NCBI GenBank assembly: GCA_033762255.1
Contig: JANRLT010000047.1
Span: 1-41,668 of the forward strand
Length of the DNA stretch: 41,668 nucleotides
From: Pirellulales bacterium
GTDB lineage: Bacteria; Planctomycetota; Planctomycetia; Pirellulales; JALHPA01
Direction: 5' to 3'
In this document: positions 26,164-41,427 of the stretch, one piece after another
Layout of the letters: each line of letters starts with the position of its first letter
Numbering within the stretch: the stretch's first letter is position 1
Made by a program: the position numbers and the translations under genes
The notes under the pieces: model-generated
Database searches by the model: none
The model's input: only the letters and a program-made list of their open reading frames with translations
Told to the model about the DNA's origin: nothing

Positions 26164-26712
26164 GCTGGCAATTGTTAGTTAAATAAATAGTCTACCGGCC
26201 CCCCACTGAATCAAGCGATTTGCACCTTATTTTCAGGGATCATCCTAAAAAGACAAGCCGCGAAATCCGAACTTCCCCCAGCGGCATGATTTTCCACCAC
26301 CAAGGCTTGTTATTTGCGGGTGGATTTCCTCAGTTAATTGACACAGGCGGGGATTTGGATATTACCAAAAGTTATGACTCGCCAGCGGCTAAAAACTTGT
26401 TAAGATACGTGCCTGAAATTGCCTGCTAGCCACCCCATTTGACCCGGGGAGGGTAGCAAAAAGAGGGAAAATGCGGTTTCTGGCAATTGTTGGGGAAAAG
26501 CCGTTGACAATCCGCTGACAAATCATAAACTGAAATAGTTCGTGAAAAAAGTCACAAGGACGACCCGGCTTTCGACCGAACGTATACAAAGCTTTTCCCT
26601 ATACGGATTTCCGATCTTTGTGTTTCTGCAAATTTCGGATTTTTTGATGTTTAACCCGGTTGCAACCTCTTTTGACCAGACGCCATTACGGTGCTGTCAT
26701 GGGTGAGTGATC
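26164..26712. other. Divergent promoter region between purD and the respiratory cluster
   Basis: About 550 bases without a supported gene. It is AT-richer than its surroundings. On the plus strand there is a good promoter (see 26504-26531) and a leader of about 180 bases. No riboswitch or terminator was recognised. A purD promoter should lie near 26180-26230 on the minus strand, but I cannot fix it. Confidence 0.5.
26504..26531 (+). promoter_or_regulatory. Sigma70-like promoter for the respiratory cluster
   Basis: A perfect -35 TTGACA at 26504-26509 is followed after 16 bases by TAAACT at 26526-26531, which matches the -10 consensus at four of six positions. Transcription would start near 26538, leaving a leader of about 175 bases before the Rieske ATG. 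Position in front of a nine-gene plus-strand cluster supports it. Confidence 0.55.
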
Positions 26713-27858
26713 ATGGCTGAAGAGAAAAAACGCCCAACTGTTGCCGAGATTTTAGCGGCCGCACGTAAAAATAAACCTGCGGAAGGGACGGAGTCGTCGG
26801 CGCCCGCTGCGGAAATCCCGGAAAAATCGTCAACAGCCGCCACGGCCGCTACTTCACCCCCCAGCAATCCGGCCGCTGCCCCGGCAAAGGCCGCTCCGCC
26901 TAAGGTTGCTGCTGCTAAACCCGCTAGCGGTGGAAAGCCCAGCGTGGCTGAAATGCTGGCTATGGCCCGCGCTCAAAAAGCTGGCGGATCGCCCGCGCCC
27001 GCCGCGGCAGCGGCCACTGCGGCCCCCGCCGAAAAACCTGCTCCAGCGGCAAAACCCGCCCCTAAACCGGCTGAAAAAGCCGCGGATAAGGCCGCGGCCA
27101 AGCCAGCCGCCGCCAAAGTCGTGCCGAAGGACACGGCCAGTATTTTGGCTTCTGCTCGGGGGGGAGCAAAACCTGGCCCCGTGACCAAAGCTGAAGCGGC
27201 CGCGGCCGAAGCCAAGGAAGACAAAGAAGCCACCGCAGCCGCCAAGGCAAAATTAGCCGCGGTGCCGCCTATGCCGGCCAAGCCCGACTATGCCAAGCCC
27301 AAGCCAAAAGGAAAAGAAGCGGCGGAGATTTCGCGGCGGGGGATGTTTGGGTGGATTGCCGGCGCGGCGGCCTTTGTGACTGGCTCCGCCTTTGCCCTGG
27401 GGAACACCGCCATGGCGATGACCGGCGGGTTGTGGACATTGGGCATGGCGCGTTACATGTTTCCCAATATTCTTACGGAACCCCCCAGTCGGTTCAAAGT
27501 CGGCTTTAAGGACGCCTTTGCACCAGGTATGGTCGACACCCGATTTGTGTCTCAATTTGGCGTGTGGGTGGTCAATACCGAATTTCAAGGTCAACGCATG
27601 ATTTACGCGTTGCGGACGGTATGCACGCACCTGGGTTGCACGCCAAATTGGCTAGAAGGGGAACAAAAATTCAAATGTCCGTGCCACGGCAGCGGTTTTT
27701 ATAAGGATGGCATTAACTTTGAGGGACCCGCGCCGCGGCCCCTCGAACGATACGCGATCCGCATTGCCGATGACGGTCAACTAGAAATTGATAAAAGCCG
27801 GATGTTCCAAGAGGAATTGGGCCAATGGGCCGATCCCAGCTCGTTTATTCCCGTTTAA
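26713..27858 (+). CDS. Rieske iron-sulfur protein of a bc-type complex, with long Ala/Pro/Lys-rich N-terminus
   Basis: The Rieske subunit passes electrons from quinol to cytochrome c. The C-terminal domain carries the [2Fe-2S] ligands in CTHLGC and CPCHGSGF, near residues 305 and 325. Before it is a membrane anchor, 'SRRGMFGWIAGAAAFVTGS', with a twin-Arg-like start, near residue 210. The first 195 residues are a soluble cytoplasmic tail dominated by Ala, Pro and Lys. It contains three copies of a short motif: VAEILAAARKNK, VAEMLAMARAQK and TASILASARGG. The total is 381 residues, about twice a usual Rieske protein. The ATG at 26713 is chosen over the GTG two codons up. It is the first gene of the respiratory cluster. 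Confidence 0.95.
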   Translation: MAEEKKRPTVAEILAAARKNKPAEGTESSAPAAEIPEKSSTAATAATSPPSNPAAAPAKAAPPKVAAAKPASGGKPSVAEMLAMARAQKAGGSPAPAAAAATAAPAEKPAPAAKPAPKPAEKAADKAAAKPAAAKVVPKDTASILASARGGAKPGPVTKAEAAAAEAKEDKEATAAAKAKLAAVPPMPAKPDYAKPKPKGKEAAEISRRGMFGWIAGAAAFVTGSAFALGNTAMAMTGGLWTLGMARYMFPNILTEPPSRFKVGFKDAFAPGMVDTRFVSQFGVWVVNTEFQGQRMIYALRTVCTHLGCTPNWLEGEQKFKCPCHGSGFYKDGINFEGPAPRPLERYAIRIADDGQLEIDKSRMFQEELGQWADPSSFIPV

Positions 27859-27966: not shown

Positions 27967-28740
27967 ATGTCACTTGGCGAATCCATCCGTAATTCCCAAA
28001 TTTGGAAAAGCATTTTTCGGCATCCGGCTCCGCTTGATCGGCGGAATCGCATCGTCGTGATGCTGACCAATTTCTTTTTGCACTTGCATCCCGTTTCCAT
28101 CAAAAAACAGGGGATTGCGCTTAGTTATACCTGGTGCATGGGGGGGATCACGTTCTTTTTGTTTTTGGTCGAGACGATCACCGGCGTCCTGCTGATGTTT
28201 TATTACCGTCCCACGCTGCAGTGGGCGTACCAGGACATCATGAATTTGCGCGATGTGACCAGCCTGGGGGTGCTGCGCGAATTGCACCGCTGGGGAGCCC
28301 ACGCGATGGTGATTACCGTCTGGCTGCACATGTACCGCGTATTTTTAACCGGCAGCTATAAACCCCCGCGCGAGTTTAACTGGGTGGTGGGTGTGATTTT
28401 ATTGTTACTGACGCTGTTGTTGTCGTTTACAGGCTATCTATTGCCGTGGGACCAATTGGCAATTTGGGCGATCACGGTCGGTTCCAATATGGCCCGGGCC
28501 ACGCCGCTTTTAGGCCATGAGGGACCATTGCAGGGATTGTTGTCGTTCGGTGGTCGGGACATGATCACTTCCGGCTCGGACGCGCGATTTGGGTTGTTGG
28601 GAGCGCGGTTTGTGGGTGAAGAGACCCTTAATCGCTTTTATGTGTTGCACTGTATTGCCATTCCCCTGGTGGTGGCGTTGCTCTTGGCGATCCATTTCTG
28701 GCGGGTGCGCAAGGATGGCGGGATTAGCGGGCCGCTGTAG
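27967..28740 (+). CDS. Cytochrome b N-terminal part (b6-like)
   Basis: A 257-residue protein equal to the first half of cytochrome b, with about four transmembrane helices. It binds both b haems. Helix B ligands are His107 and His121 (14 apart). Helix D ligands, in '[19 protein letters not shown]', are 15 apart, as in cytochrome b6 rather than in mitochondrial-type cytochrome b, where they are 14 apart. Cys57, in '[12 protein letters not shown]', aligns with the Cys of b6 that covalently holds the extra haem c(i). The Qo-side motif '[11 protein letters not shown]' near residue 160 is present. The second half is a separate gene 141 bases downstream, so this is a split, b6f-like complex. Confidence 0.94.
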
Positions 28741-28881: not shown

Positions 28882-30264
28882 ATGGAACTTAGCTCGACAC
28901 TGTTGTTGTCACCGCTGTTGGCGTCGGCCGGTCCCGACCCGGTCAAGCATTTGTACGCCGTGGCCACCTTTTTGGGGGGCTATTACGTGCTGATGGCCGT
29001 GATGAACGGCGTGGCGGCCTATCTATGGTGGCAAAGGGAAAACGATAACGCGCGGGCGCTCATTTGGACGGTGGTGGCGGTCCTGCTTGCCGGGGTGTTG
29101 GCACCCTTGGCCATGAGCGGCCATCAGGGCTGGGTCCCCAGCATGCCCGACTTTATTAAGCAGATCGTCAATTATCTCTCTGGACCGGTCGCCTACACCC
29201 TGGGAACCACCCTCATCCTGGTGGTGATGTACATCTTTCGGCGATTTTTTGTCCAGACGGATGTCGCCTGGACCATGCTAAATCTTTCGCTGCTGGCATT
29301 AGGCCTAGCGATGGCCGACCCCAACTTTGCCGCGATTGTCATGAAGCCCGACAACGTGCCAATCGTGGGGCTGGTTTACTTGCTGGGTTATTTTACCTGG
29401 CTGGCCACCGCCATAGCCGTAAAAAATGACGATCGGATCGAGCAAGGATTGCCTCCTTTAGAAAAGTCCGACGGCATGGACGAAAAAGTTCTCGTTTGGC
29501 CCGATCTGGTCTACACCGAATTGATCTGCATGATCGCCCTGACCGCGTTCCTATTGGTCTGGGCCATTGCCCTTCCCGCCCCGCTGGAAGAACCCGCCAG
29601 CAGCGTCAAAACACCCAATCCGTCCAAGGCTCCGTGGTACTTTTTGGGCTTGCAAGAAATGTTGGTGTATTTTGATCCCTGGTACGCCGGCGTGGTGCTC
29701 CCCAGCCTGGTCATTGTGGGTTTGATGGCCATTCCGTATTTGGATTTTAACAAAAAAGGAAACGGCTATTACACGATTAAGGAACGACAATTTAGCTATT
29801 TGGTTTTTCAATTTGGCTTTTTGGAATTGTGGGTGACGCTGATTATCCTGGGGACGTTTTTGCGCGGGCCTAACTGGAATTTTTACGGACCCTTTGAATT
29901 ATGGGATCCGCACAAGGTTGAGGTGCTGTCCAACCGCGATTTGTCGCAATTCTTTTGGAATGACTTGTTGGGAATGCCATTGCCCAAGGCTCCCGAAGGC
30001 TCGGGGGCGGGGACGGGTTTTGCGTACATCTTGTTGCGGGAATTGCCAGGGATTGTGACGGTGCTGGCGTACTTTTTGTTTTTGCCGCCGCTTTTGGCCG
30101 TGACCGTGTTTCGCAAATTTTACGTCAAGATGGGCTTTGTGCGTTATATGGTCATGATCAATCTGTTTTTGTTCATGATGACCTTGCCAATCAAGATGGT
30201 CCTGCGTTGGACCGTCAACCTGAAATACTTTATTAACATTCCCGAATATTTCCTGAACTTTTAG
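28882..30264 (+). CDS. Cytochrome b C-terminal part (subunit IV-like), enlarged
   Basis: A 460-residue membrane protein carrying the second half of cytochrome b. The Qo-site segment is 'PSKAPWYFLGLQEMLVYF' near residue 250; the usual PEWY motif is here APWY, a form I associate with menaquinone-using complexes. Before that are about four or five more helices (residues 15-190), an extension absent from subunit IV of b6f, which has about 160 residues. Further helices follow to the C-terminus. Together with the upstream b6-like subunit it forms the quinol-oxidising core. The start ATG at 28882 is preceded by a spacer with no strong ribosome site. Confidence 0.88.
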   Translation: MELSSTLLLSPLLASAGPDPVKHLYAVATFLGGYYVLMAVMNGVAAYLWWQRENDNARALIWTVVAVLLAGVLAPLAMSGHQGWVPSMPDFIKQIVNYLSGPVAYTLGTTLILVVMYIFRRFFVQTDVAWTMLNLSLLALGLAMADPNFAAIVMKPDNVPIVGLVYLLGYFTWLATAIAVKNDDRIEQGLPPLEKSDGMDEKVLVWPDLVYTELICMIALTAFLLVWAIALPAPLEEPASSVKTPNPSKAPWYFLGLQEMLVYFDPWYAGVVLPSLVIVGLMAIPYLDFNKKGNGYYTIKERQFSYLVFQFGFLELWVTLIILGTFLRGPNWNFYGPFELWDPHKVEVLSNRDLSQFFWNDLLGMPLPKAPEGSGAGTGFAYILLRELPGIVTVLAYFLFLPPLLAVTVFRKFYVKMGFVRYMVMINLFLFMMTLPIKMVLRWTVNLKYFINIPEYFLNF

Positions 30265-30365
30265 CGTGTCAGAAGGACGTGACCGAGACGCGGCGTTGTT
30301 AAACGTCCGTTGGCTAGGGCGGTTTTTTTTCTGGGGACGCGGTTCATTTTTTGCGGTGATCGTTC

Positions 30366-33300
30366 ATGCCTGCTAACGAACAAACCTGGCGCAGCCTGCC
30401 AAAACTGCATGTGGTCTTTGGGATCTCGGCGATCTTGATGTTTTTGACCACGGTGTGGCTCTTGGTGGCGGACCATAATCGCGAATGGCGGCAGTACCAG
30501 ACAAAATGGTACGACTTGGAGGCGTGGAGCGTCTCGCAGCGCATTAACGAGACGGATTCGGCGAATTTTAAAAAGGACGTGGATAGTTTGCGGCGGGACG
30601 TCCTGGCCGATACCGTCCAAAGCTGGTTCGTTGATTCCACCGCCGTCGAAAAACTGGTCCAAATGGTCCAGGACGCCAAAGAGCTGGTGCCGTTAAAGTT
30701 GTCGACCGGTTATTTGACTTCGACGGATAATGTCACCGAGCAATTGACCACCGCGATTACCGCGGCCGGCACCGCCCGGAATGAGCTACTGACCGCCGCG
30801 GGCCTGGATCCCGCCACGGTCCCCCCCGGCCAACCTCTGCCGGACGACAACGCGGCCCAAAAGAAACTTTTGGAGATTGCCGCGGGACAGGGGACTACCG
30901 CCCAAACCGCCGCCCTAGAAAACTACCGCCTCGCACGGGAAAAAGTCCTTGGCCAAGTGCGCGACTTGATCAAGCAAGTATTTTTTGTGGAACAAAACCT
31001 GGTCGCGGAAGTGAAATTGCAACGCGCCAACCTAGACAAGGCCCGCGCGGAATACGACCAATCCATCAATGAGAATAAACCTGACGATGTTATCGCCAAA
31101 TACAAAAAAACTTATAGCGATTTACAGCAACAACTCGAGGGGACAGAACTTGCCCGCCCAGCCCCCGGAACGCAACCCGCGGCCCAAGTGGTCGGCATGT
31201 TGCCGCAATTGCAACAGATAAAGACCTTGCGGGAAGGGCTGGAAGGCCAGCTAAAGTCCGTCACCGCCATCGAAACCGCCTCCCGCAAAAAGCTGGACGA
31301 TCAACTGGCCAAGTTAGAGCAACTGCGCAAGAGCCTGGAAGAACGGGCGAATCATTGGCAAAAAGACGTTGTGGACCTACCCATCATCAATGCCTTTGGC
31401 GCGCGGCTGCGACCCGACCAAACCTGGCTCCCCAATCTTACCCAGACCTTTGGCAGCTTTGGCCAGGTGGCGCGGTTTGACCGCTGCACGACCTGCCACA
31501 TGGGCATCGCCAAGACCAAGCCCGGCTCCGCGGTTGAACCCCTGTTTCCTCCCCAGCATTCGTTCACGGTGGAAATAATTGCCCCCGCGCTGGAACAGGA
31601 CAAAATCAACGAAATGCAAGAAAAGTTCGCCGCGGGCGATCTGTTTACCGAAGGAAACAACTTTCTTTCACAGCAGTTTGGCTTTACCCTGGCCGAGACG
31701 GGGCTTTTCCGCCCGGACGAGGCCACCATCAGTTCCGTCCTGCCCGAAAGTTTAGCCGCCAAAGCCGGCCTGAACATGGGTGATGTGATTCTCTCGGTCC
31801 AGACCGCCGAGACTTCCACCATTAATCTGGCTTTCTCCTATCTCCTCGAGGACATGACGTGGGGGAAACCATTTAAAATTACCGTTAAGCGCGGCGCGCC
31901 GCAGCCTTATTGCGCCCATCCGCGCTTGGACTTGTTTGTAGGTTCGTTGAGTCCGCATCCGATCGAATCCTTTGGCTGCTCCGTCTGCCACCAGGGAAAT
32001 GGCTCGGCCACGGCGTTCAAATGGGCGTCCCATACGCCGAACTTGGTCGAGACCGAATCGGAATGGACCAGCGAGTATGGCTGGTTTAACAATCACCATT
32101 GGGTTTATCCCATGTGGCCGGCGCGCTTTGCCGAATCCGGTTGCCTAAAGTGCCACCACGAAGTAGCTGAACTAGATTCCAGCGAACGTTTTCCCGATAC
32201 CCCCGCCCCCCGCTTGGTGGAAGGCTTTAACACGATCAAGGATTACGGCTGTTTTGGCTGTCACGAAATCAACGGCTATGATGGGCCAAATCGCCGGATC
32301 GGTCCCGATTTGCGGAATGAACCTTCCTATTACGCCGCGGCGCAGCAGCTTTTGGCCGATGCCAAATTCAACGCCCTCGGCCCCGATGCCGTACAACTCG
32401 CCCAAACCGTGGTCCAACATCCCGAGGATGACGCCACTCGTCGGCGCTTGCTGGAAATGATCTCACTGGATGCCGCGGCGGCCGCCGCCGTGCGCGAGGG
32501 AAAATCCACCACTCCCCCGGTGCTGTCGCCGGACGCCCATCGCCTGGAAGCCGCGCTCAAGGATGTCTCCGTACCTGGCAAACTGCGCAAAGTCGGTCCC
32601 AGCTTGCGATTTATTAACGAGAAAGTGGGTTACGACTTTTTGTACGACTGGATTCGCGATCCGACGCACTTCCGCCCCACCACCAAAATGCCCCGCTTCT
32701 TTGGGTTGTGGGACGCGCTCTCCGGGGATCAACTGGAAAAAGCCAAGCTCTTTGAACAAGCCGAAATCCAGGGAATTACCGAATATCTGCTGACCGCCTC
32801 GCAGACCTACCAACCGGTGGAACCGACCGAAAAGGCGCTTCCCCCCTCGCTCGAACGGGGCAAGCAACTCTTTGAAGTGCGCGGTTGTTTAGCCTGCCAC
32901 TCGCATGTTGATTTTCCGTCTATCACCGCCAATCAAGGTCCCGACCTGAGCAACCTGGGGGCCAAACTAAGTCTCGATCCGGTAAAGGGTCAAAAGTGGC
33001 TCTATAGTTGGGTGCGCGAGCCACACCGTTACCATGTCCGCACGGTGATGCCCAACCTGTACCTCGATCCCTACGAGGACGCGCAATTGGGCGTCATCGA
33101 TCCCGCGGCGGATATCGCGGCCTACTTGTTTGCCTCTCAAAAATTAGATCCCCATTCGGACGCGGTCTACCAGCCGCTGGATGTCCCAGCGCGCGGGCTG
33201 GCCGGACCCGCCGCGACGGCCTTCAACGACCCGCAAAAATTCCAAAAGTTCCGCGATAGCGGCTATGACACCAGTATCAAGCTAACCGCCCTGACTCCCC

Positions 33301-35435
33301 TAGAAGCCCTGGCCTACGAGCACTTGATTGGCCGCTTTACTAAGTCGCGTGCCGCGGAATTACTGCAAAACGGACTCCCCGCGACCGCCGCCGAACAAAT
33401 CCAAGGGGACGAGGCGCTGTTGATTGGCCTGACCGCCGAAAATCGCCACCAGCGCCTCTTGCAGTACGTGGGGAAGCGTTCGCTCAACAAGTATGGCTGT
33501 TTTGGCTGCCATGATATCCCCGGCTACGAGGATGCCAAGCCCATCGGCGCCGCTCTGGCCGATTGGGGCCGCAAGGATACCTCCAAGCTGGCGTTTGAAA
33601 ATATCTCCGCCTACGTGCATCATGTCATGGAAGGTCATGGGCATGGCGGAAATAGCGGTCACGGTAACGCGCACGCCAATGATCAATCCGGCGGCCATGC
33701 GGGGGATATGCCTGGACCGGATAAAGGCGCTTTATCGCATGCAACGGGGCACGGGGCCGATGCGGTTACTCCCGCTGATCCCGCCACCAATAACAAACCC
33801 CTTAGTGCCACGGTAAACCCCGCGATCCTGGAACAGCAGGATGGACCTCCCCGGGTCGTGACCGATCCCTTTGCCCTGGCCACCGCCGATCCGCTTCCTC
33901 CGCTCTCGGTTCAAGCGCAAACACGCGAGTTCTTCATCGAAAAACTGCTCCTTAACGAGCGTGAAGGCTTTATCTGGCAAAAACTCAACGCCCCCCGCAG
34001 TTACGATTATCAAAAGACGGCCATGAAGCCGTACAACGATAAACTGCGCATGCCCAAGTTTCGCTTTGCCCGGGACGAGGCGGCCCACCAACGCGCGCTC
34101 GAATCGGTGGTCACCTTTGTGTTGGGCCTCGTTGCCGAACCACCCGCTCCGCAGTACATCTTTAATCCTCCCCCGGCCAAGCGGGACATCATTGCCGGTA
34201 AGTTGCTGCTAGAAAAATACAACTGCGGCGGCTGCCACATGATCAGAATGGAACAGTGGGATATCGCCTACACCCCGGAAATGATTGCTCCCGGGCCGGA
34301 TTTTGACGGTTTCCCCTTTGAAAAACCGATTGTCACGCCGGAACAAATCGCCCAGTCCAAAAAGCTGAATGCGGCGGGGCTGATGACCGCCACCCTGCAC
34401 GGTCTGGCGCAGCGTAATCCGCAAACAGGCGAAATACAAAAATTCAGCCTGGACGATGATTCGCCGCTGGAACCGGGGGACACCACGACCCCGGGATACT
34501 ATAACTTTGACCTGTTTGAGCCGGTCATCCTCAATGGCGAATACCGCCAGGTAAGCAAAATCCCCGTTCGCGTGCCGGAAGCCGCCATCGCGCGTCGCGG
34601 CCAGGGAGACAACCGCTTGAAGGTCTTTCCCACCTTGGGGGGTGCATTTGCCAAGTATTTATTTCCCATCTTGGTAAAGAACGAAAAAGAATACAAATTA
34701 GATGGCAAGGAACAAGAGGCCTGGGGCTGGGGTCCACCGACACTCTTTCACGAGGGGCGTAAGGTTCAAACCGGCTGGCTGCACGACTTTTTGTTAGAAC
34801 CCCACCCCATCCGTCCGGCCGCCGCGCTGCGCATGCCAAAATTTAACATGTCCTCCGCCGAGGCCCTCCAATTTGCCAATTACTTTGCGGCGATGGATGG
34901 TGTTCCGTACCCGTACGAGGCCAATCCCCAAACGCAAGAAACCTATTTAGCCGCCGCGCAACAAGCCCATTCCACCCGCTTGGACGACGCGCTAAAAATC
35001 GTCAACGCCCAATGCATCAAGTGCCACCTGCTCAATGATTACTCCGCGGGGGGAAGCCCCAAAGCGCTCGCTCCGCAGCTTAACCGCGTGCACGAGCGTC
35101 TGCGTCCGGAATATATTCAAAAGTGGGTGGCCAATCCTAATAGCATCCTTCCTTACACCGGCATGTTGCGGGTCATTGCCCACGGCGCTCCCGTCCCGGA
35201 TGCCCAGTTCCCCGGCGAAACGCCTGAGGAGCAAAGCTCGGCCCAGTTGCAGGGGGTATTGGACCTGCTGCTGAATTTCCATAAGTACAGCAAATCGCAA
35301 TTTTCGATCAAACCGTTGGTAACCGTTCCACCAGCGACCGATGGAGCGGCGACAGATGCCAAGGGGGCCGGGGCCAATGCCGCGCAACCGGAACAACCGG
35401 GCGAGACTTCCCCGGCGCAAACCCCGCCAGAATAA
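30366..35435 (+). CDS. Giant octahaem cytochrome c with PDZ domain
   Basis: A 1689-residue protein. It has an N-terminal membrane anchor at about residues 14-38 ('VVFGISAILMFLTTVWLLVA') and a long helical region to about 365 with probable coiled coils. Eight CxxCH haem c sites follow: CTTCH 374, CSVCH 538, CLKCH 593, CFGCH 629, CLACH 841, CFGCH 1045, CGGCH 1287, CIKCH 1550. Between the first two sites, about residues 430-515, lies a PDZ-like domain ('LPESLAAKAGLNMGDVILSV'). A His-rich low-complexity stretch is at about 1085-1135, and the C-terminus is Ala/Pro/Gln-rich. It probably takes electrons from the Rieske/cytochrome b complex in place of cytochrome c1. This fused design is unusual; the role is inferred from position. 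The ATG at 30366 opens the anchor. Confidence 0.9.
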   Translation: MPANEQTWRSLPKLHVVFGISAILMFLTTVWLLVADHNREWRQYQTKWYDLEAWSVSQRINETDSANFKKDVDSLRRDVLADTVQSWFVDSTAVEKLVQMVQDAKELVPLKLSTGYLTSTDNVTEQLTTAITAAGTARNELLTAAGLDPATVPPGQPLPDDNAAQKKLLEIAAGQGTTAQTAALENYRLAREKVLGQVRDLIKQVFFVEQNLVAEVKLQRANLDKARAEYDQSINENKPDDVIAKYKKTYSDLQQQLEGTELARPAPGTQPAAQVVGMLPQLQQIKTLREGLEGQLKSVTAIETASRKKLDDQLAKLEQLRKSLEERANHWQKDVVDLPIINAFGARLRPDQTWLPNLTQTFGSFGQVARFDRCTTCHMGIAKTKPGSAVEPLFPPQHSFTVEIIAPALEQDKINEMQEKFAAGDLFTEGNNFLSQQFGFTLAETGLFRPDEATISSVLPESLAAKAGLNMGDVILSVQTAETSTINLAFSYLLEDMTWGKPFKITVKRGAPQPYCAHPRLDLFVGSLSPHPIESFGCSVCHQGNGSATAFKWASHTPNLVETESEWTSEYGWFNNHHWVYPMWPARFAESGCLKCHHEVAELDSSERFPDTPAPRLVEGFNTIKDYGCFGCHEINGYDGPNRRIGPDLRNEPSYYAAAQQLLADAKFNALGPDAVQLAQTVVQHPEDDATRRRLLEMISLDAAAAAAVREGKSTTPPVLSPDAHRLEAALKDVSVPGKLRKVGPSLRFINEKVGYDFLYDWIRDPTHFRPTTKMPRFFGLWDALSGDQLEKAKLFEQAEIQGITEYLLTASQTYQPVEPTEKALPPSLERGKQLFEVRGCLACHSHVDFPSITANQGPDLSNLGAKLSLDPVKGQKWLYSWVREPHRYHVRTVMPNLYLDPYEDAQLGVIDPAADIAAYLFASQKLDPHSDAVYQPLDVPARGLAGPAATAFNDPQKFQKFRDSGYDTSIKLTALTPLEALAYEHLIGRFTKSRAAELLQNGLPATAAEQIQGDEALLIGLTAENRHQRLLQYVGKRSLNKYGCFGCHDIPGYEDAKPIGAALADWGRKDTSKLAFENISAYVHHVMEGHGHGGNSGHGNAHANDQSGGHAGDMPGPDKGALSHATGHGADAVTPADPATNNKPLSATVNPAILEQQDGPPRVVTDPFALATADPLPPLSVQAQTREFFIEKLLLNEREGFIWQKLNAPRSYDYQKTAMKPYNDKLRMPKFRFARDEAAHQRALESVVTFVLGLVAEPPAPQYIFNPPPAKRDIIAGKLLLEKYNCGGCHMIRMEQWDIAYTPEMIAPGPDFDGFPFEKPIVTPEQIAQSKKLNAAGLMTATLHGLAQRNPQTGEIQKFSLDDDSPLEPGDTTTPGYYNFDLFEPVILNGEYRQVSKIPVRVPEAAIARRGQGDNRLKVFPTLGGAFAKYLFPILVKNEKEYKLDGKEQEAWGWGPPTLFHEGRKVQTGWLHDFLLEPHPIRPAAALRMPKFNMSSAEALQFANYFAAMDGVPYPYEANPQTQETYLAAAQQAHSTRLDDALKIVNAQCIKCHLLNDYSAGGSPKALAPQLNRVHERLRPEYIQKWVANPNSILPYTGMLRVIAHGAPVPDAQFPGETPEEQSSAQLQGVLDLLLNFHKYSKSQFSIKPLVTVPPATDGAATDAKGAGANAAQPEQPGETSPAQTPPE

Positions 35436-35583: not shown

Positions 35584-36357
35584 ATGAAACATTTCATTTT
35601 GACCGGCGTTGTGTGCGGACTATTTTTGTCGTTGACTCCGTTGCTTTGTTCCGCGCAGGACTGGGGAACACTGAAGGGAAAATTTGTCCTGGATGGCGAA
35701 GCCCCGGCTCCCAAGGAACTCAAGTGCGACAAGGATCCCGCGACCTGCTGTGCCCAAAAGTTGATCGACGACACCCTGGTCATTGGCCCTAATAAGGAAA
35801 TCGCCAATGTGTTTGTGTACCTGCGGTCAAAGCCCAGCAAGGTCCACCCCGACTATGACAAGCTGGCGGCCACTCCCCTGGAACTAGACAACAAGAACTG
35901 CATGTTCACCCCCCATGCGTCGGTCCTGTGGAACAAGCGCAAACTGCTCCTCAAGAATTCCGACAATGTGGGCCACAACACCAACTACGGTTCGGCGGTA
36001 CAAGGATTTAACGTACTGATCCCCGCGGAAGGTTCCGTGGACAAGACCCTAAAGGCGTCGGAGAATCTGCCGCAAAACGTAAGCTGCAACATCCACCCCT
36101 GGATGTCGGCCAAGTTGTTGGTGCGGGATAACCCGTACGGAGTTGTCTCGGCGGCGGACGGCACGTTTGAAATCAAGCATCTCCCCCTGGACAAAGGGGC
36201 GGAGTTTGTCGTGTGGCATGAAAAATCGGGCTACGTCAAATCGGTCAAGTTCGCCAGCGGCGCGGTCGACGACAAGGGTCGGTTCAAGCTGGACATAAAG
36301 GCTGGCGACACCGACCTGGGCGAGATCAAAATCCCGGTCAAGCTGCTGAGTAAGTAA
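35584..36357 (+). CDS. Exported cupredoxin-like electron carrier 1
   Basis: A 257-residue protein with a signal peptide (residues 1-24, ending 'LLCSAQ'). The cupredoxin domain holds the likely type 1 copper ligands His131 (in GHNTNYG), Cys168, His171 and Met174 (in 'VSCNIHPWM'). Between them is an insertion-rich loop and at the C-terminus a carboxypeptidase-regulatory-like beta module ('DGTFEIKHLPLDKGAEFVVWHEK'). A conserved CxxxxxxCC cluster sits near residues 48-56. The ATG at 35584 has AGGA eight bases upstream; the open frame upstream overlaps the octahaem gene's 3' end and is not used. It is paralogous to the next gene. As a soluble copper protein it may carry electrons to the oxidase. 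Confidence 0.92.
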   Translation: MKHFILTGVVCGLFLSLTPLLCSAQDWGTLKGKFVLDGEAPAPKELKCDKDPATCCAQKLIDDTLVIGPNKEIANVFVYLRSKPSKVHPDYDKLAATPLELDNKNCMFTPHASVLWNKRKLLLKNSDNVGHNTNYGSAVQGFNVLIPAEGSVDKTLKASENLPQNVSCNIHPWMSAKLLVRDNPYGVVSAADGTFEIKHLPLDKGAEFVVWHEKSGYVKSVKFASGAVDDKGRFKLDIKAGDTDLGEIKIPVKLLSK

Positions 36358-36425
36358 TTTGGCTTTTTGGTTTTATGGTAAGTGGTTTTTGGTGGTTCGG
36401 CATCACACTAACATTAGGTGGAAAT

Positions 36426-37307
36426 ATGAAACTTAAATCTTTTCAGTTGATGTTAGTGTGTATTTTACCCATGGCGGCACTTGTATTGACGGGTTGTTCC
36501 TCCAGCTATCCCGATCCGCGGCCCGACCTGGACGCGGCGGCCGCCATCCGGACCAAGTGGAAAACCGCGGCCCCGGCGGCGGACGCCACCGAGCAGGCCG
36601 CCCCCGTCGGCACCGGTTGGGGGACGCTGAAGGGGCGGTTCGTGTGGGACGGCGAAATTCCCGTCCAAGCGACCTTGAATTGCGATAAGGATTCCGGCAC
36701 CTGTTGTAAGGAAAAAATTCTGGATGAATCGTTGGTGGTCGGCTCTGACAAGGGAGTCGCCAACATCATCGTCTTTTTGCGCAGCAAGGCCAGCCGCATC
36801 CATCCCGAGACCGAGAAAATCGCCGAGACCCCCGTGGTGCTGGACAACGTCAAGTGCGTCTTTCGCCCGCATGTCTCCGCCCTGTGGACCAAACAAAAGC
36901 TGATCCTCAAAAACTCCGATGACGTCGGCCATAACACCAACTACTCCTCCACGTCCCAGGGATTTAACGAACTCTTAGCCCCCAATAGCACCAAGGAACG
37001 GACACTCGCCAAGGGAGAGAACGCCCCCGCCGGGGTCAGTTGCAACATTCATGGTTGGATGGCGGCGCGCTTGCTGGTGCGGGACAATCCCTACTTTGCC
37101 GTGACCAAGGCGGACGGCACGTTTGAAATTCCCAACCTGCCCGCGGGGGAAGAACTGGAATTCAAAATCTGGCACGAAAAAAACGACAAGCTGGAACTGG
37201 CCGTGGGGGACATTAAAGTGGCCAAAGGTTCGTTTAAGCTCAAACTAACCGAAGACGAGACCAAACCCCTGGATGTTTCCTTAACACCCGCCATGTTCGG
37301 CAAATAG
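36426..37307 (+). CDS. Cupredoxin-like lipoprotein 2
   Basis: A 293-residue paralogue of the upstream cupredoxin, about 50-60% alike by eye. It has a lipoprotein signal with lipobox LTGC at Cys24, so it is anchored to a membrane, then a spacer of about 35 residues rich in Ala and Asp. The cupredoxin core follows with the same ligand contexts, 'VGHNTNYSS' and 'VSCNIHGWM', and the same C-terminal beta module ('DGTFEIPNLPAGEELEFKIWHEK'). The ATG at 36426 has AGGTGG just upstream. The pair arose by tandem duplication, one copy soluble and one tethered. Confidence 0.92.
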   Translation: MKLKSFQLMLVCILPMAALVLTGCSSSYPDPRPDLDAAAAIRTKWKTAAPAADATEQAAPVGTGWGTLKGRFVWDGEIPVQATLNCDKDSGTCCKEKILDESLVVGSDKGVANIIVFLRSKASRIHPETEKIAETPVVLDNVKCVFRPHVSALWTKQKLILKNSDDVGHNTNYSSTSQGFNELLAPNSTKERTLAKGENAPAGVSCNIHGWMAARLLVRDNPYFAVTKADGTFEIPNLPAGEELEFKIWHEKNDKLELAVGDIKVAKGSFKLKLTEDETKPLDVSLTPAMFGK

Positions 37308-37385
37308 CCCTTCCCGCGACTCACCAATGAGATGCCAGCCTTGCCTAACCACCAATCTATAATTTCCCCGATCCCGTTTAGTAAC

Positions 37386-38597
37386 ATGTTCGCTTTAACA
37401 AGTATTTCCCGCTGGGCGATCATTGCCGCTGTGGCCGTGCCGTTTTTTACCGGTTGCGGCCAGCCCGAGCCGGCCCGCTTTCACCTGAATATGGTTCATG
37501 CGGTAAAAAATAAAATCTCGCCCAAGAAACAGCAGGAAGTGGCCAATCTGCTGACGGCGTTGTTTGGGACGCCGGATGACCCGTATTTGCCGCCGGAATT
37601 GCAGGCGGACGGGGGGTTGGATATCAACCTGGTCCGGCGGGCGGCGGGCCCGGTGGGGAGTGACGTCAGCCGCAAAAAAAACGGTCTGTACCGCGAACAT
37701 TGCGTGCACTGCCACGGAATTAGCGGGGACGGCATGGGGACAACCGCCGCGTTTCTTAATCCCTATCCCCGCGATTACCGCCCCGGTCTGTACAAGTTCA
37801 AATCGACCAGTTCGGACACGCCGGTCCGGCCCACGCATGACGATCTGATGCGAACCCTGGTTGAGGGGCTGCCCGGCTCATCGATGCCGTCCTTCCGCCT
37901 GTTGCCGGACCAAGACCGCGAGGCGCTGGTGGAATATGTGAAGTACCTGACTGTCCGGGGGGAAACCGAACTGGCCCTCTATCAAATGGTCAATGACGAA
38001 TTTCCGGGCGAGGACGAATCGCTTCCCCAGGATCAAGAAACCATCGTGGCACTCGCGCGAACGAACGTTGATAAATGGATCAATTCCCTCGCTCAAACCA
38101 TCGAACCGCCGACACCACCCGCAAACTTTGGCACGGCTGAATCGATCGCCCTGGGGAGGGCGGCGTTTTTTGACGCTAAAAAAGGAAATTGCACCAGTTG
38201 CCATGGGACAACCGCGCTGGGTGACGGTCAATTGATCGTCAAGGACGAATGGTCAAAAAGCGTGGTGGAGGCCCGGACCGTGGCGGGGGAGGGTACCGAA
38301 AACCCCGACACCGCCGCATTAGCGCTGATTGATCAGTTTTCGCTTCCCGTGCGGTTTTTGCAGCCGCGCAATCTGCGCAACGGCATTTATCGCGGGGGAC
38401 GACGGCCCCTGGACATCTATTACCGCGTCCACGCGGGGATCCAGGGTTCCGGCATGTCCGGCGCCACGGCCGAGGCGACGCCCGACGAACGTTGGGCGAT
38501 TGTGGATTATGTCCTGTCCCTGCCGTACGAGCCGGGAGGAGCATTGCGGTTTGACCCCCATGCCGAACAGGCGGCGCCGGTCAAAGAGACGAATTAG
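37386..38597 (+). CDS. Dihaem cytochrome c lipoprotein
   Basis: A 403-residue c-type cytochrome. A lipoprotein signal ends in lipobox FTGC at Cys24. Two haem sites are visible: CVHCH near residue 104 and CTSCH near residue 269, each in a separate cytochrome c domain. Candidate Met ligands are in 'GSSMPSFRLL' and 'GIQGSGMSGATA'. The start at 37386 opens the signal; an ATG at 37332 is in frame but would bury the signal. It sits between the cupredoxins and coxB, so it is probably the direct electron donor to the oxidase. Confidence 0.9.
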   Translation: MFALTSISRWAIIAAVAVPFFTGCGQPEPARFHLNMVHAVKNKISPKKQQEVANLLTALFGTPDDPYLPPELQADGGLDINLVRRAAGPVGSDVSRKKNGLYREHCVHCHGISGDGMGTTAAFLNPYPRDYRPGLYKFKSTSSDTPVRPTHDDLMRTLVEGLPGSSMPSFRLLPDQDREALVEYVKYLTVRGETELALYQMVNDEFPGEDESLPQDQETIVALARTNVDKWINSLAQTIEPPTPPANFGTAESIALGRAAFFDAKKGNCTSCHGTTALGDGQLIVKDEWSKSVVEARTVAGEGTENPDTAALALIDQFSLPVRFLQPRNLRNGIYRGGRRPLDIYYRVHAGIQGSGMSGATAEATPDERWAIVDYVLSLPYEPGGALRFDPHAEQAAPVKETN

Positions 38598-38690: not shown

Positions 38691-38713
38691 GTTTGACGCC
38701 GGAGGGTGAATCC

Positions 38714-39613
38714 GTGGCACGACTTTGGAGTTTACTGGTGTTGGCCGTGTTGATCGGCGGGGTGCTGACCTTTGCCATCGGCCCCACGTATCGCATGAGC
38801 TTGCCGCAGGATGTTTCCACGCATGGACACACCATCGACGGCCTGTATTACTTTATCCTGGCCTTGACCGGCATCGTGTTTATCGCCACGCAGTCGGTGC
38901 TGTTCTATTTTATGTGGCGGTACGAGGCCAACACCAACAAAGACCCCATCACCTACACGCATGGCAGCCACACGCTAGAGATCGTCTGGACGATTATTCC
39001 CGCAGCCACGCTCTTGTTTATTTCTATTTTTCAGTTTGATTCATGGGCGGAAGCCAAGATGCGTAATCCCATGTACGGTCCCGACGGCAAGCCCGGCACC
39101 GCGGACGACATGCCCCCCACGCTGGAAGTGACCGCGCGGCAATGGGAATGGCGGTTGCGATACCCTGGCCAGGACGGGCGCCTGGGAACCGCGGACGACC
39201 TGTTCACGGTGAATGAACTGCATGTGCCGGTCAATCAGGACATTGTGGTTTCGCTGAAAAGTATGGACATCTTGCATAGCTTTTTTCTGCCGGAACTGCG
39301 GGTCAAGCAGGACGCGGTGCCGGGGATGAAAATTCCCGTTTGGTTCCAGGCGACCAAAACCGGACGGTACGAGCTGGTCTGCGCCGAGCACTGCGGCGCG
39401 AGGCACTATGCCATGAAAGGCATGCTGGTGGTGGATACTCCCGAAGATTACCAAGCTTGGCTGCGCAAGTTGACCCGCGAGCAATTTCGCACGCAACCCG
39501 CGACCACACAGACAAACGCCACCGCGGACAATGCCACCTCCAATAATGCCACCTCCAACAATGCCCCCGCCGATTCCACACAACTCACTTCCGCCAATCA
39601 GGGTGAACTATAA
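38714..39613 (+). CDS. coxB: Cytochrome c oxidase subunit II
   Basis: Subunit II takes electrons from the donor cytochrome or cupredoxin through its binuclear CuA centre. Two N-terminal helices (residues about 5-30 and 50-75) anchor a periplasmic cupredoxin domain. The CuA motif CAEHCGARHYAMKGM is complete near residue 230. The family motif 'TARQWEWRLRYPG' is near 145. Two insertions carry nearly the same DGxxGTADD sequence (about residues 125 and 155), unusual for the family. The tail of 40 residues is Asn/Thr/Ala-rich. It has no haem c domain. The GTG at 38714 is chosen because GGAGG lies eight bases upstream. Its stop overlaps the coxA start as TAATG. Confidence 0.95.
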   Translation: MARLWSLLVLAVLIGGVLTFAIGPTYRMSLPQDVSTHGHTIDGLYYFILALTGIVFIATQSVLFYFMWRYEANTNKDPITYTHGSHTLEIVWTIIPAATLLFISIFQFDSWAEAKMRNPMYGPDGKPGTADDMPPTLEVTARQWEWRLRYPGQDGRLGTADDLFTVNELHVPVNQDIVVSLKSMDILHSFFLPELRVKQDAVPGMKIPVWFQATKTGRYELVCAEHCGARHYAMKGMLVVDTPEDYQAWLRKLTREQFRTQPATTQTNATADNATSNNATSNNAPADSTQLTSANQGEL

Positions 39614-41427
39614 TGAGTAGCGCCGCACTCCCCTCGCATGATAGCCACGGCGTGGCCCACCATGCCGACGCGCATGGCCATGGCCACTCGGCCAGCTTTC
39701 TGAGCACTTACGTGTTTTCGCTCGACCACAAGGTGATCGGGATTCAGTTTTTGTTCTCGACCTTGATCTGGTTTTTGATCGGCGGGCTATTGGCCCTGGC
39801 GGTGCGCTGGCAGATCGCCTGGCCCTGGTCGCCGGTGCCTGGTTTGGCGCATTTGTACACGGCCGAAGGGGGCCAGATGTCCCCGGAGGCGTACACCATG
39901 CTGTTTACCATGCACGCCACGGTCATGATCTTTTTGGTCATTATCCCCATCTTGGCCGGGGCGTTTGGCAACTTTTTGATTCCGCTGATGATCGGCGCCG
40001 ACGACATGGCGTTTCCAACGCTAAACATGCTGAGCTATTGGTTTATGTGGCCAGCATTTATCTGCTTTGGAGCCAGCTTTTTTGTGGAGGGAGGGGCTTC
40101 GGCGGCGGGCTGGACCAGCTATCCCCCGCTAAGCGTGGTTAAAACCGCGACCCCCGGCAGCCTGAATGGCCAAACACTCTGGCTCCTGGGCCTGACATTT
40201 GTCGGCGTCAGTTCCATGATGGGCTCGGTCAATTACATGACCACGATCATCTTGATGCGCGCCCCGGGCATGACAATGTTTCGCATGCCATTAACCATCT
40301 GGGGGATGTTTATCACCGCGGTATTGCAGGCCTTTGCCCTGCCGGTGCTAACCGCCGCGGGCTTTATGCAGCTCATGGACCGCGAGATGGGAACCGGCTT
40401 TTTTACGGCCGAAGGAAACGTTGTGAACAACTTTAGCGTCTCCGCCGGGGGGGGGCAGCCGCTGCTCTGGCAGCACTTGTTCTGGTTTTATTCCCATCCC
40501 GCCGTGTACATCATGATCCTCCCCGCCATGGGAATGGTCAGCGACATCCTCAGTTGTTTTGCCCGCAAGCCCATCTTTGGATATAAGCCGATGGTTTATT
40601 CCATCGCCGGGATTGCCGGCCTGGGCTTTATCGTCTGGGGACATCACATGTTTGTGTCGGGGATGAATCCGGCCCTGGGGATGACCTTTATGGTTTCCAC
40701 CATGATGATCGCGCTTCCCAGCGCGATTAAGACATTCAATTGGCTGGGGACCATTTGGGGGGGGAAAATCCAGTACACCACGCCCATGCTGTTTGCCCTC
40801 TCCTTTGTTTCGATGTTTATCATCGGGGGGCTTTCCGGCATTTTCATGGCGGCCACGCCGGTCGATATTTTTATCCATGACACCTATTTCATCGTCGCCC
40901 ACTTTCATTATGTGTTGTTTGCCGGCACGGCGATGGGCGTGTGGGGGGCGATCTACTTTTGGTTCCCCAAAATGTTTGGCCGGATGATGAACGAATTTTG
41001 GGGGAAAGTCCACTTTTTGCTAACGTTCATCTTTTTGAACGGGACATTTTTTCCCATGCACATCCTGGGGGCGGGGGGATTTCCCCGCCGTTTGGCCGAT
41101 GCCTACCACTATGAGTTATTCCAGCACATGCAGCCGCTGAATGCGTTCATGACGTGGTGCGCCATTGGCATGGTTGCCACGCAAATCATCTTTGCCATCA
41201 ACTTCTTTTACAGCATGTTTTATGGACCGGTGGCGGGACGAAATCCCTGGAAGGCCAATGGACTGGAATGGTCCGCCCCCAGCCCCCCGGGCCATGGTAA
41301 CTTTGATTTCCAGCCGATCATTTACCGCGGGCCTTACGAATATGGCTCTCCGGAAACGACCGAGGATTATTACCCGCAAATCCAGCCTCCCCCTCCGGGG
41401 GCTAAACCGGCCGTGGAACATCACTAA
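39613..41427 (+). CDS. coxA: Cytochrome c oxidase subunit I, A2-type
   Basis: Subunit I of the haem-copper oxidase, 604 residues with 12-13 membrane helices. The CuB and haem ligands are visible: 'FTMHATVMIFLVIIP' (His, low-spin haem), 'WFYSHPAVYIMILP' (His and Tyr of CuB), 'WGHHMFVSGM' (two His) and 'HFHYVLFAG' (haem ligands). In the helix VI motif the Glu of A1-type oxidases is missing and the YS form is present, so this is an A2-type enzyme. The K-channel Ser and Lys contexts ('GMVSDIL', 'FGYKPMVYS') are present. The N-terminus is His-rich (HHADAHGHGH). It overlaps coxB by one base and is co-translated. Confidence 0.97.
   Translation: MSSAALPSHDSHGVAHHADAHGHGHSASFLSTYVFSLDHKVIGIQFLFSTLIWFLIGGLLALAVRWQIAWPWSPVPGLAHLYTAEGGQMSPEAYTMLFTMHATVMIFLVIIPILAGAFGNFLIPLMIGADDMAFPTLNMLSYWFMWPAFICFGASFFVEGGASAAGWTSYPPLSVVKTATPGSLNGQTLWLLGLTFVGVSSMMGSVNYMTTIILMRAPGMTMFRMPLTIWGMFITAVLQAFALPVLTAAGFMQLMDREMGTGFFTAEGNVVNNFSVSAGGGQPLLWQHLFWFYSHPAVYIMILPAMGMVSDILSCFARKPIFGYKPMVYSIAGIAGLGFIVWGHHMFVSGMNPALGMTFMVSTMMIALPSAIKTFNWLGTIWGGKIQYTTPMLFALSFVSMFIIGGLSGIFMAATPVDIFIHDTYFIVAHFHYVLFAGTAMGVWGAIYFWFPKMFGRMMNEFWGKVHFLLTFIFLNGTFFPMHILGAGGFPRRLADAYHYELFQHMQPLNAFMTWCAIGMVATQIIFAINFFYSMFYGPVAGRNPWKANGLEWSAPSPPGHGNFDFQPIIYRGPYEYGSPETTEDYYPQIQPPPPGAKPAVEHH

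Follow-up and report, generated by a model that had tools for sequence, protein, structure and literature searches.

The window, that is, the whole stretch of 41,668 nucleotides analysed here, carries nine consecutive genes encoding a Rieske protein, the two halves of a split cytochrome b, a large multihaem cytochrome c, two cupredoxin-like proteins, a dihaem cytochrome c and two subunits of a cytochrome c oxidase (Table 1). The closest solved structure to the Rieske protein is Kustd1480 (9rk3; E 2e-39), and the cluster motif CTHLGC...CPCHG is present in all 61 Rieske proteins compared, the window's included. The N-terminal half of cytochrome b matches the NCBIfam cytochrome b6 subfamily below its cut-off; the motif YTWCMGG, found in 62 of 66 such halves, marks a site that we liken to the cysteine for the additional haem c in cytochrome b6. 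The C-terminal half bears APWYF where PEWY would stand (71 of 75 sequences) and ends with -LNF in most Pirellulales and mostly with -FFNI elsewhere. By our own topology count, the -LNF terminus is probably periplasmic. The two cupredoxin-like proteins gave no Pfam match over cut-off; a PDB comparison with the cupredoxin-like sequence yielded nothing useful, a single match standing at E 0.23. All 84 distinct open reading frames (ORFs) of this type share two His, a Cys and a Met in the order H, C, H, M, and 80 of them contain C-x-[VI]-H-x-W-M; these four residues correspond to the copper ligands of type 1 copper proteins. CoxB carries the CuA motif.

Table 1. Genes, domains and haem-binding sites of the respiratory block in the window.
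Feature	Position	Strand	Basis
Rieske [2Fe-2S] protein, long N-terminal extension, conserved tail ending -SFIPV	26707..27858	+	Pfam PF00355, closest structure 9rk3
Cytochrome b N-terminal half, b6-like, with YTWCMGG	27967..28740	+	Pfam PF00033
Cytochrome b C-terminal half / subunit IV-like, APWYF	28882..30264	+	Pfam PF00032
Octahaem cytochrome c subunit, 1689 aa	30366..35435	+	ORF, eight CxxCH motifs
N-terminal membrane helix, residues 11-37	30396..30476	+	predicted helix, conserved start
Long helices, coiled-coil-like, residues 162-327	30849..31346	+	model, mostly pLDDT ≥90
Haem 1 site CTTCH, within RxDRCxxCH	31485..31499	+	CxxCH motif
PDZ domain, residues 397-512, invariant G439 in Phi-G-Phi-x-Phi loop	31554..31901	+	Pfam, model, alignment
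Haem 2 site CSVCH	31977..31991	+	CxxCH motif
Haem 3 site CLKCH	32142..32156	+	CxxCH motif
Haem 4 site CFGCH	32250..32264	+	CxxCH motif
Class I cytochrome c domain, haem 5 (site 32886-32900), residues 814-926, SoxX-like fold	32805..33143	+	Pfam PF00034, model
Haem 6 site CFGCH	33498..33512	+	CxxCH motif
His-rich linker, residues 1085-1145, 9 His, mostly predicted disordered	33618..33800	+	sequence, model
Haem 7 site CGGCH	34224..34238	+	CxxCH motif
Haem 8 site CIKCH	35013..35027	+	CxxCH motif
Cupredoxin-like protein 1, start codon inferred, type 1 copper H, C, H, M conserved	35584..36357	+	alignment
Cupredoxin-like protein 2, paralogue of cupredoxin-like protein 1	36375..37307	+	alignment
Dihaem cytochrome c	37332..38597	+	Pfam PF00034/PF13442
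Cytochrome c oxidase subunit II (CoxB)	38693..39613	+	NCBIfam CoxB over cut-off
Cytochrome c oxidase subunit I (CoxA)	39613..41427	+	Pfam PF00115, E 7e-150

The initial annotation had placed the octahaem gene after the cytochrome b genes and had proposed a comparison with other planctomycete clusters. The octahaem gene does follow the cytochrome b genes directly, and the gene order proved invariant in every locus where it could be tested. Eighty loci were compared, 79 of them with planctomycete record titles and one (L073) titled only 'bacterium'. The Rieske gene and both cytochrome b genes lie upstream in 49 of the 49 loci with enough upstream DNA, and the genes for the dihaem cytochrome, CoxB and CoxA follow in all 46 with enough downstream DNA. 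The gap between the second cytochrome b gene and the octahaem gene ranges from 9 to 215 nt (median 64, 73 loci) and measures 101 nt in the window, where it contains a terminator-like hairpin with T8 at 30304-30321. This hairpin counts against the reading preferred below, but such terminator-like sites were observed 35 times against 24 expected, and T6 occurs in this gap in only 3 of 73 relatives. Five of the loci (L033, L059, L065, L099 and L110) are titled Candidatus Kuenenia stuttgartiensis and carry a Pirellulales-type octahaem gene; these titles are probably wrong.

Architecture of the octahaem protein

The octahaem gene is a single open frame and has the eight CxxCH motifs that had been described; they lie at residues 374, 538, 593, 629, 841, 1045, 1287 and 1550. 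All eight are kept in the 65 complete ORFs among the window and loci L032-L111, in 60 of 60 loci across the class (L117-L176) and in 19 of 20 across the phylum (L177-L196), so that they cannot be fortuitous. The exception, L190, has a split gene with six and two motifs in adjoining ORFs; a third related ORF with four motifs lies nearby. The longer motif around haem 1, RxDRCxxCH, is invariant in the 96 rows of alignment A5. Pfam recognizes a class I cytochrome c near haem 5 and a CBB3-type cytochrome near haem 8.

Structure was predicted with AlphaFold in two overlapping parts, residues 1-715 (model 1, from an alignment of 96 sequences of our own loci; mean pLDDT 85.7) and residues 654-1689 (model 2; mean pLDDT 82.5). 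Model 2 is confident except mainly in the His-rich linker and the C-terminal tail. The predictions bear out the remaining elements of the initial description. The membrane anchor is a predicted N-terminal helix, and the start of the protein is conserved as MPAxEQTWR...LHVVF; the coiled-coil region appears as long helices at residues 178-235, 240-258 and 278-327; and the His-rich linker, with pLDDT mostly below 50, is probably disordered. In one homologue (L148), the 157-residue spacer between haems 1 and 2 contains two apparent further membrane helices.

Foldseek searches with either model taken whole returned no match at E ≤0.001. Domain by domain, the haem 5 region of model 2 aligns with the SoxX chain 2c1d_B (VIA Z 12.5). 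The alignments of the haem 8 region to complex III chains, presumably cytochrome c1 to judge by their length, are too weak for use (Z 8.0, 7.4 and 7.2). SoxX itself is small, has a single haem and partners SoxA. The octahaem protein scores 82.5 against the 61-bit NCBIfam cut-off for SoxX, a sum over three stretches, but it counts 1689 residues and its haem 5 domain is one of eight. No Sox gene was found among the nine operon proteins scanned. We therefore rejected an identity with SoxX and attribute the score to class I haem domains.

A cytochrome c subunit at the place of cytochrome c1 or f

The initial annotation held that the octahaem protein replaces cytochrome c1. It does sit, with invariant synteny, at the place of c1, or of cytochrome f, given that cytochrome b is split and b6-like; it is also expected to take the same role as electron acceptor of the Rieske protein. 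Cytochrome c1 has a single haem and a C-terminal anchor, whereas the octahaem protein has eight haem motifs and an N-terminal anchor, and it gave no Pfam or NCBIfam match to cytochrome c1 at E up to 0.1. The replacement is not new, however. Homologues occur in 48 of the 57 genomes of the close-relative search (own genome included), in 168 of 297 genomes of the class and in 185 of 292 genomes of a phylum sample, the weakest of these matches being partial. Because homologues with eight motifs are found phylum-wide, including at the anammox-type locus L195, the octahaem subunit must be old within the phylum.

At L195, an octahaem homologue (eight motifs, 946-aa ORF) adjoins a Rieske gene whose product matches Kustd1480 (9rk3) over the whole solved length (E 3e-69), with 98 of 117 residues identical by our own count, about 84%; homology to the anammox subunit was judged through this locus. 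Published work on an anammox bacterium describes octahaem or hexahaem subunits for such complexes, the Kustd1480 complex having a multihaem c subunit of this kind instead of cytochrome f, modelled inside the complex (PMC12954380). The likeness to Kustd1480-1485 of Kuenenia stuttgartiensis extends to the split b6-like cytochrome b, to the Rieske protein nearest to Kustd1480 and to Kustd1485, a multihaem c subunit that is likewise large, anchored in the membrane and provided with long helices, and that stands in for cytochrome f (PMC12954380). The differences are that L195 has no PDZ domain and that the operon of the window ends in a cytochrome c oxidase. A Pfam scan of the nine operon proteins found no NAD(P) oxidoreductase; by sequence, the complex of the window is a relative of the Kustd1480-1485 type that lacks this part, and not an NAD(P)-reducing version.

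From what is known of the family, electrons from quinol would be taken up at the p-side site of cytochrome b and passed to the Rieske cluster, then to the octahaem subunit in the role of cytochrome c1 or f. Having travelled along its haems, they would reach the dihaem cytochrome c, the two cupredoxin-like proteins, or both, and finally CuA in the cytochrome c oxidase of the adjacent genes. In planctomycetes, the final stages of the respiratory chain seem to have received little description. The Thermogutta genome paper reports a b/c1 complex, but neither a typical cytochrome c gene nor one for plastocyanin (PMC5673643). The nine-gene block in the window spans the way from quinol to oxygen; it has an octahaem subunit in place of c1, and its two unannotated cupredoxin-like proteins could serve as carriers. 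Arranged in tandem and conserved alongside the octahaem gene, they may be the carriers that were missing on the way to the oxidase.

Alternative complex III is another route from quinol to oxidases by way of multihaem cytochromes. It has an NrfD-type subunit, and the genome of the window, which is 96.6% complete, shows no match to this subunit (PF03916), as against 13 of 13 other chosen genomes that have it. For this reason the octahaem complex is probably the main quinol-to-oxidase route of that genome, in which a second cytochrome b gene is also present. Eleven of the genomes with NrfD-type subunits (G016, G032, G052, G078, G007, G024, G047, G063, G067, G080 and G142) have no close homologue of the cytochrome b, with identities of at most about 38% and none in G047, while G086 and G119 have both such a homologue and the NrfD-type subunit. 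This distribution suggests that alternative complex III and the octahaem complex replace each other.

The PDZ domain: fold, distribution and history

Between haems 1 and 2 of the octahaem protein lies a PDZ domain. Pfam PF00595 matches residues 436-486 with 25.4 bits, over the gathering score of 23.2, and by Pfam models the domain is found in 77 of 78 haem 1-2 segments from the window and L032-L111, PDZ_6 and PDZ_2 each matching 77 of them (E up to 0.1). The AlphaFold prediction is confident here (block means of pLDDT 91-98 over residues 391-520). Residues 398-514 superpose on a solved PDZ domain with Z 9.2 and an rmsd of 2.1 over 86 aligned residues, and in a second-look alignment of model 1 PDZ domains made up 49 of the 50 matches listed. 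The PDZ-like fold suggested by the initial annotation is thus predicted where structure prediction was to look for it. Its limits, given as 430-515, come close but start too late: the fold begins near residue 397 and includes a helical insertion (411-438).

Over 78 sequences, the binding-loop positions show Tyr at 438 with a frequency of 0.90, G439 at 1.00 and L442 at 0.90; the window has Phe at 438, where Tyr prevails. Because these residues are kept, the loop fits a working binding loop. The best PDB sequence-profile matches to the domain come from the PDZ region of DegP (E 3e-7), but unlike HtrA/DegP proteins the octahaem protein has no protease domain in a Pfam scan. PDZ and c-type haems also meet within one protein in the magnetosome proteins MamP and MamE (PMC3971196). 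The haem domains and function are different there, and the NCBIfam MamE score of the octahaem protein is 19.6 bits against a cut-off of 800.

A PDZ profile of our own detected the domain in 79 of the 80 loci L032-L111, a count that is circular for the sequences from which the profile was built, that is, most of them, while the Pfam counts are not; the exception, L089, is a fragment starting behind the domain. These loci are called Pirellulales from record titles and the tree. In further loci of the same order, the domain is present between haems 1 and 2 in nine of nine members of families f3, f7, f9, f10 and f16, and in only three of five members of f18, the loop being short in L165 and L167. 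Most members of family f22 have a short haem 1-2 loop, and in 10 of 26 a PDZ domain sits elsewhere, seven times between haems 5 and 6 and three times between haems 6 and 7; these ten inserts were selected for Pfam testing on length among the 26. No PDZ was found in the 38 homologues of other families and classes scanned.

On a tree of 97 rows, computed by a quick method with SH-aLRT support only and leaving out the split gene of L190, the inserts between haems 6 and 7 fall in a single clade (support 100), those between haems 1 and 2 require two changes, and those between haems 5 and 6 require five, at least three of them forced by well-supported branches. L190 and L193 were also left out of alignment A8, and L084, L089 and L100, which are cut before haem 1, out of A2. 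Gains and losses are not separable everywhere on this tree. Since the domain stands at three positions in different lineages, it would have arrived at least three separate times, unless it moved within the protein.

Possible docking and alternative roles for the PDZ domain

The data are best explained jointly, with a probability of about 0.68, by a membrane-anchored octahaem c subunit that belongs to a b6f-like Rieske/cytochrome b complex of planctomycetes and carries an inserted PDZ domain for docking or assembly. Of the two parts, the complex III role of the octahaem protein is likely and the docking role of the PDZ domain plausible. The domain would stand outside the electron path, as a lineage-specific insert in the haem 1-2 loop, and would most likely serve in docking or assembly at the periplasmic surface, where it would hold a partner against the haem chain. 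The candidate partners are a carrier, the oxidase, a neighbouring complex or an assembly factor, whose C-terminus the groove might bind, as the initial annotation had suggested in proposing a possible supercomplex with the oxidase. Gene linkage is consistent with such a role. All 46 PDZ loci with enough DNA, and 12 of 12 further ones, are linked to the dihaem/oxidase genes, the f18 loci to the dihaem gene only; ten further PDZ loci are too short downstream and were tallied as 'short'. None of the 29 unlinked loci has the domain. A PDZ domain is not required, however, as 17 linked loci do without it. The three positions, and the restriction to linked loci wherever this could be judged, give docking circumstantial support, but the linked loci fall in few clades, and shared ancestry confounds the pattern.

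The partner considered most closely was the Rieske protein of the same complex, whose C-terminus, -[FY][VIL]x[VA]-COOH, would be held by the PDZ domain so as to steer or limit the swing of the Rieske head. Phi-x-Phi is the form of class II PDZ ligands, and it ends 60 of 61 Rieske proteins from the window and the PDZ-bearing loci L033-L111; 59 of the 61 have the full ending, which lies on the p side. The ending also looks looser in PDZ-poor f22 (6 of 26) and in other classes (6 of 18). This first striking agreement was weakened by further comparison. Only 7 of 10 further Rieske proteins encoded beside PDZ genes of the same order have the ending, and at L166, with a PDZ domain present, the Rieske protein ends -MLEHGVG. 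Conversely, the ending occurs in seven of nine PDZ-less f21 and three of five PDZ-less f23 Rieske proteins, and within f22 it is, by eye, not commoner with PDZ (1 of 10) than without (5 of 16). Kustd1480 itself ends FLKV, from a complex type without PDZ in the homologues scanned, and in its structural description the end of the tail is hydrogen-bonded to its own strand 4 of the Rieske sheet (PMC12954380). Covariation of tail columns -6 to -1 with the PDZ domain ranks 66, 26, 62, 81, 44 and 80 of 84. A tail that exists without PDZ and does not covary with it argues against the binding of a partner tail, and we consider the Rieske tail quite unlikely as the ligand. Other tails were discarded as well: that of cytochrome b is conserved everywhere, lies near the membrane and is not specific to PDZ lineages; the [RK]DRx ending of the dihaem cytochrome occurs in 30 of 56 sequences (window and L032-L111) but is absent from the window's own; and CoxA and CoxB share no PDZ-like ending.

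That no tail among those compared stands out as a ligand fits a domain that binds no peptide at all and serves as a structural or dimerisation module, packing on its own protein or on the second copy within a dimeric complex. In the model, strand 2, with which a ligand would pair, has only three residues (440-442), and two helices (411-423 and 426-438) immediately precede the binding loop; furthermore, the dimer of MamP, a protein that combines PDZ and c-type haem, is mainly stabilised by PDZ-PDZ contacts (PMC3971196). On the other hand, the Phi-G-Phi-x-Phi loop is strongly conserved, and three different positions are harder to understand as one fixed packing contact, so that this explanation, although a real contender, has the odds against it. 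At the opposite end, repeated recruitment into different loops of oxidase-joined operons could mean that PDZ domains latch the oxidase, the dihaem cytochrome or the cupredoxin-like proteins to the haem chain, giving a supercomplex held by peptide-recognition domains; we regard this as rather improbable, and an oxidase supercomplex built by PDZ as speculative. Finally, the octahaem protein could be a separate periplasmic electron store or sink, merely co-encoded with the complex, as its departure from the single-haem, C-terminally anchored c1 layout might suggest. Yet its gene follows cytochrome b in all testable loci, it has a predicted membrane anchor, and the anammox counterparts are modelled within their complex (PMC12954380), which makes this reading highly improbable.

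With the octahaem protein read as a complex III subunit and its PDZ domain as a docking insert, the known part is the large multihaem subunit of a known, little-studied complex III type. What appears to be new is that a respiratory electron-transfer complex contains a PDZ domain, and that this domain occupies three positions, each in different lineages; a literature search, with most subscription journals outside its scope, returned no PDZ in a bc complex among the matches listed. If docking is correct, the domain in the window may help keep the respiratory chain together, and repeated PDZ uptake by an electron-transfer subunit would offer a concrete and testable bacterial way of building supercomplexes.

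Inserts of other kinds occupy the same loops in some f22 members, which makes it possible that the octahaem subunit is simply tolerant of insertions. One of them weakly matches a PPIC-type rotamase (Pfam, E 0.008), and we take this match, judging from the sequence, to be the non-PDZ insert of L137 between haems 6 and 7. Domains related to periplasmic folding seem to enter the same octahaem loops.
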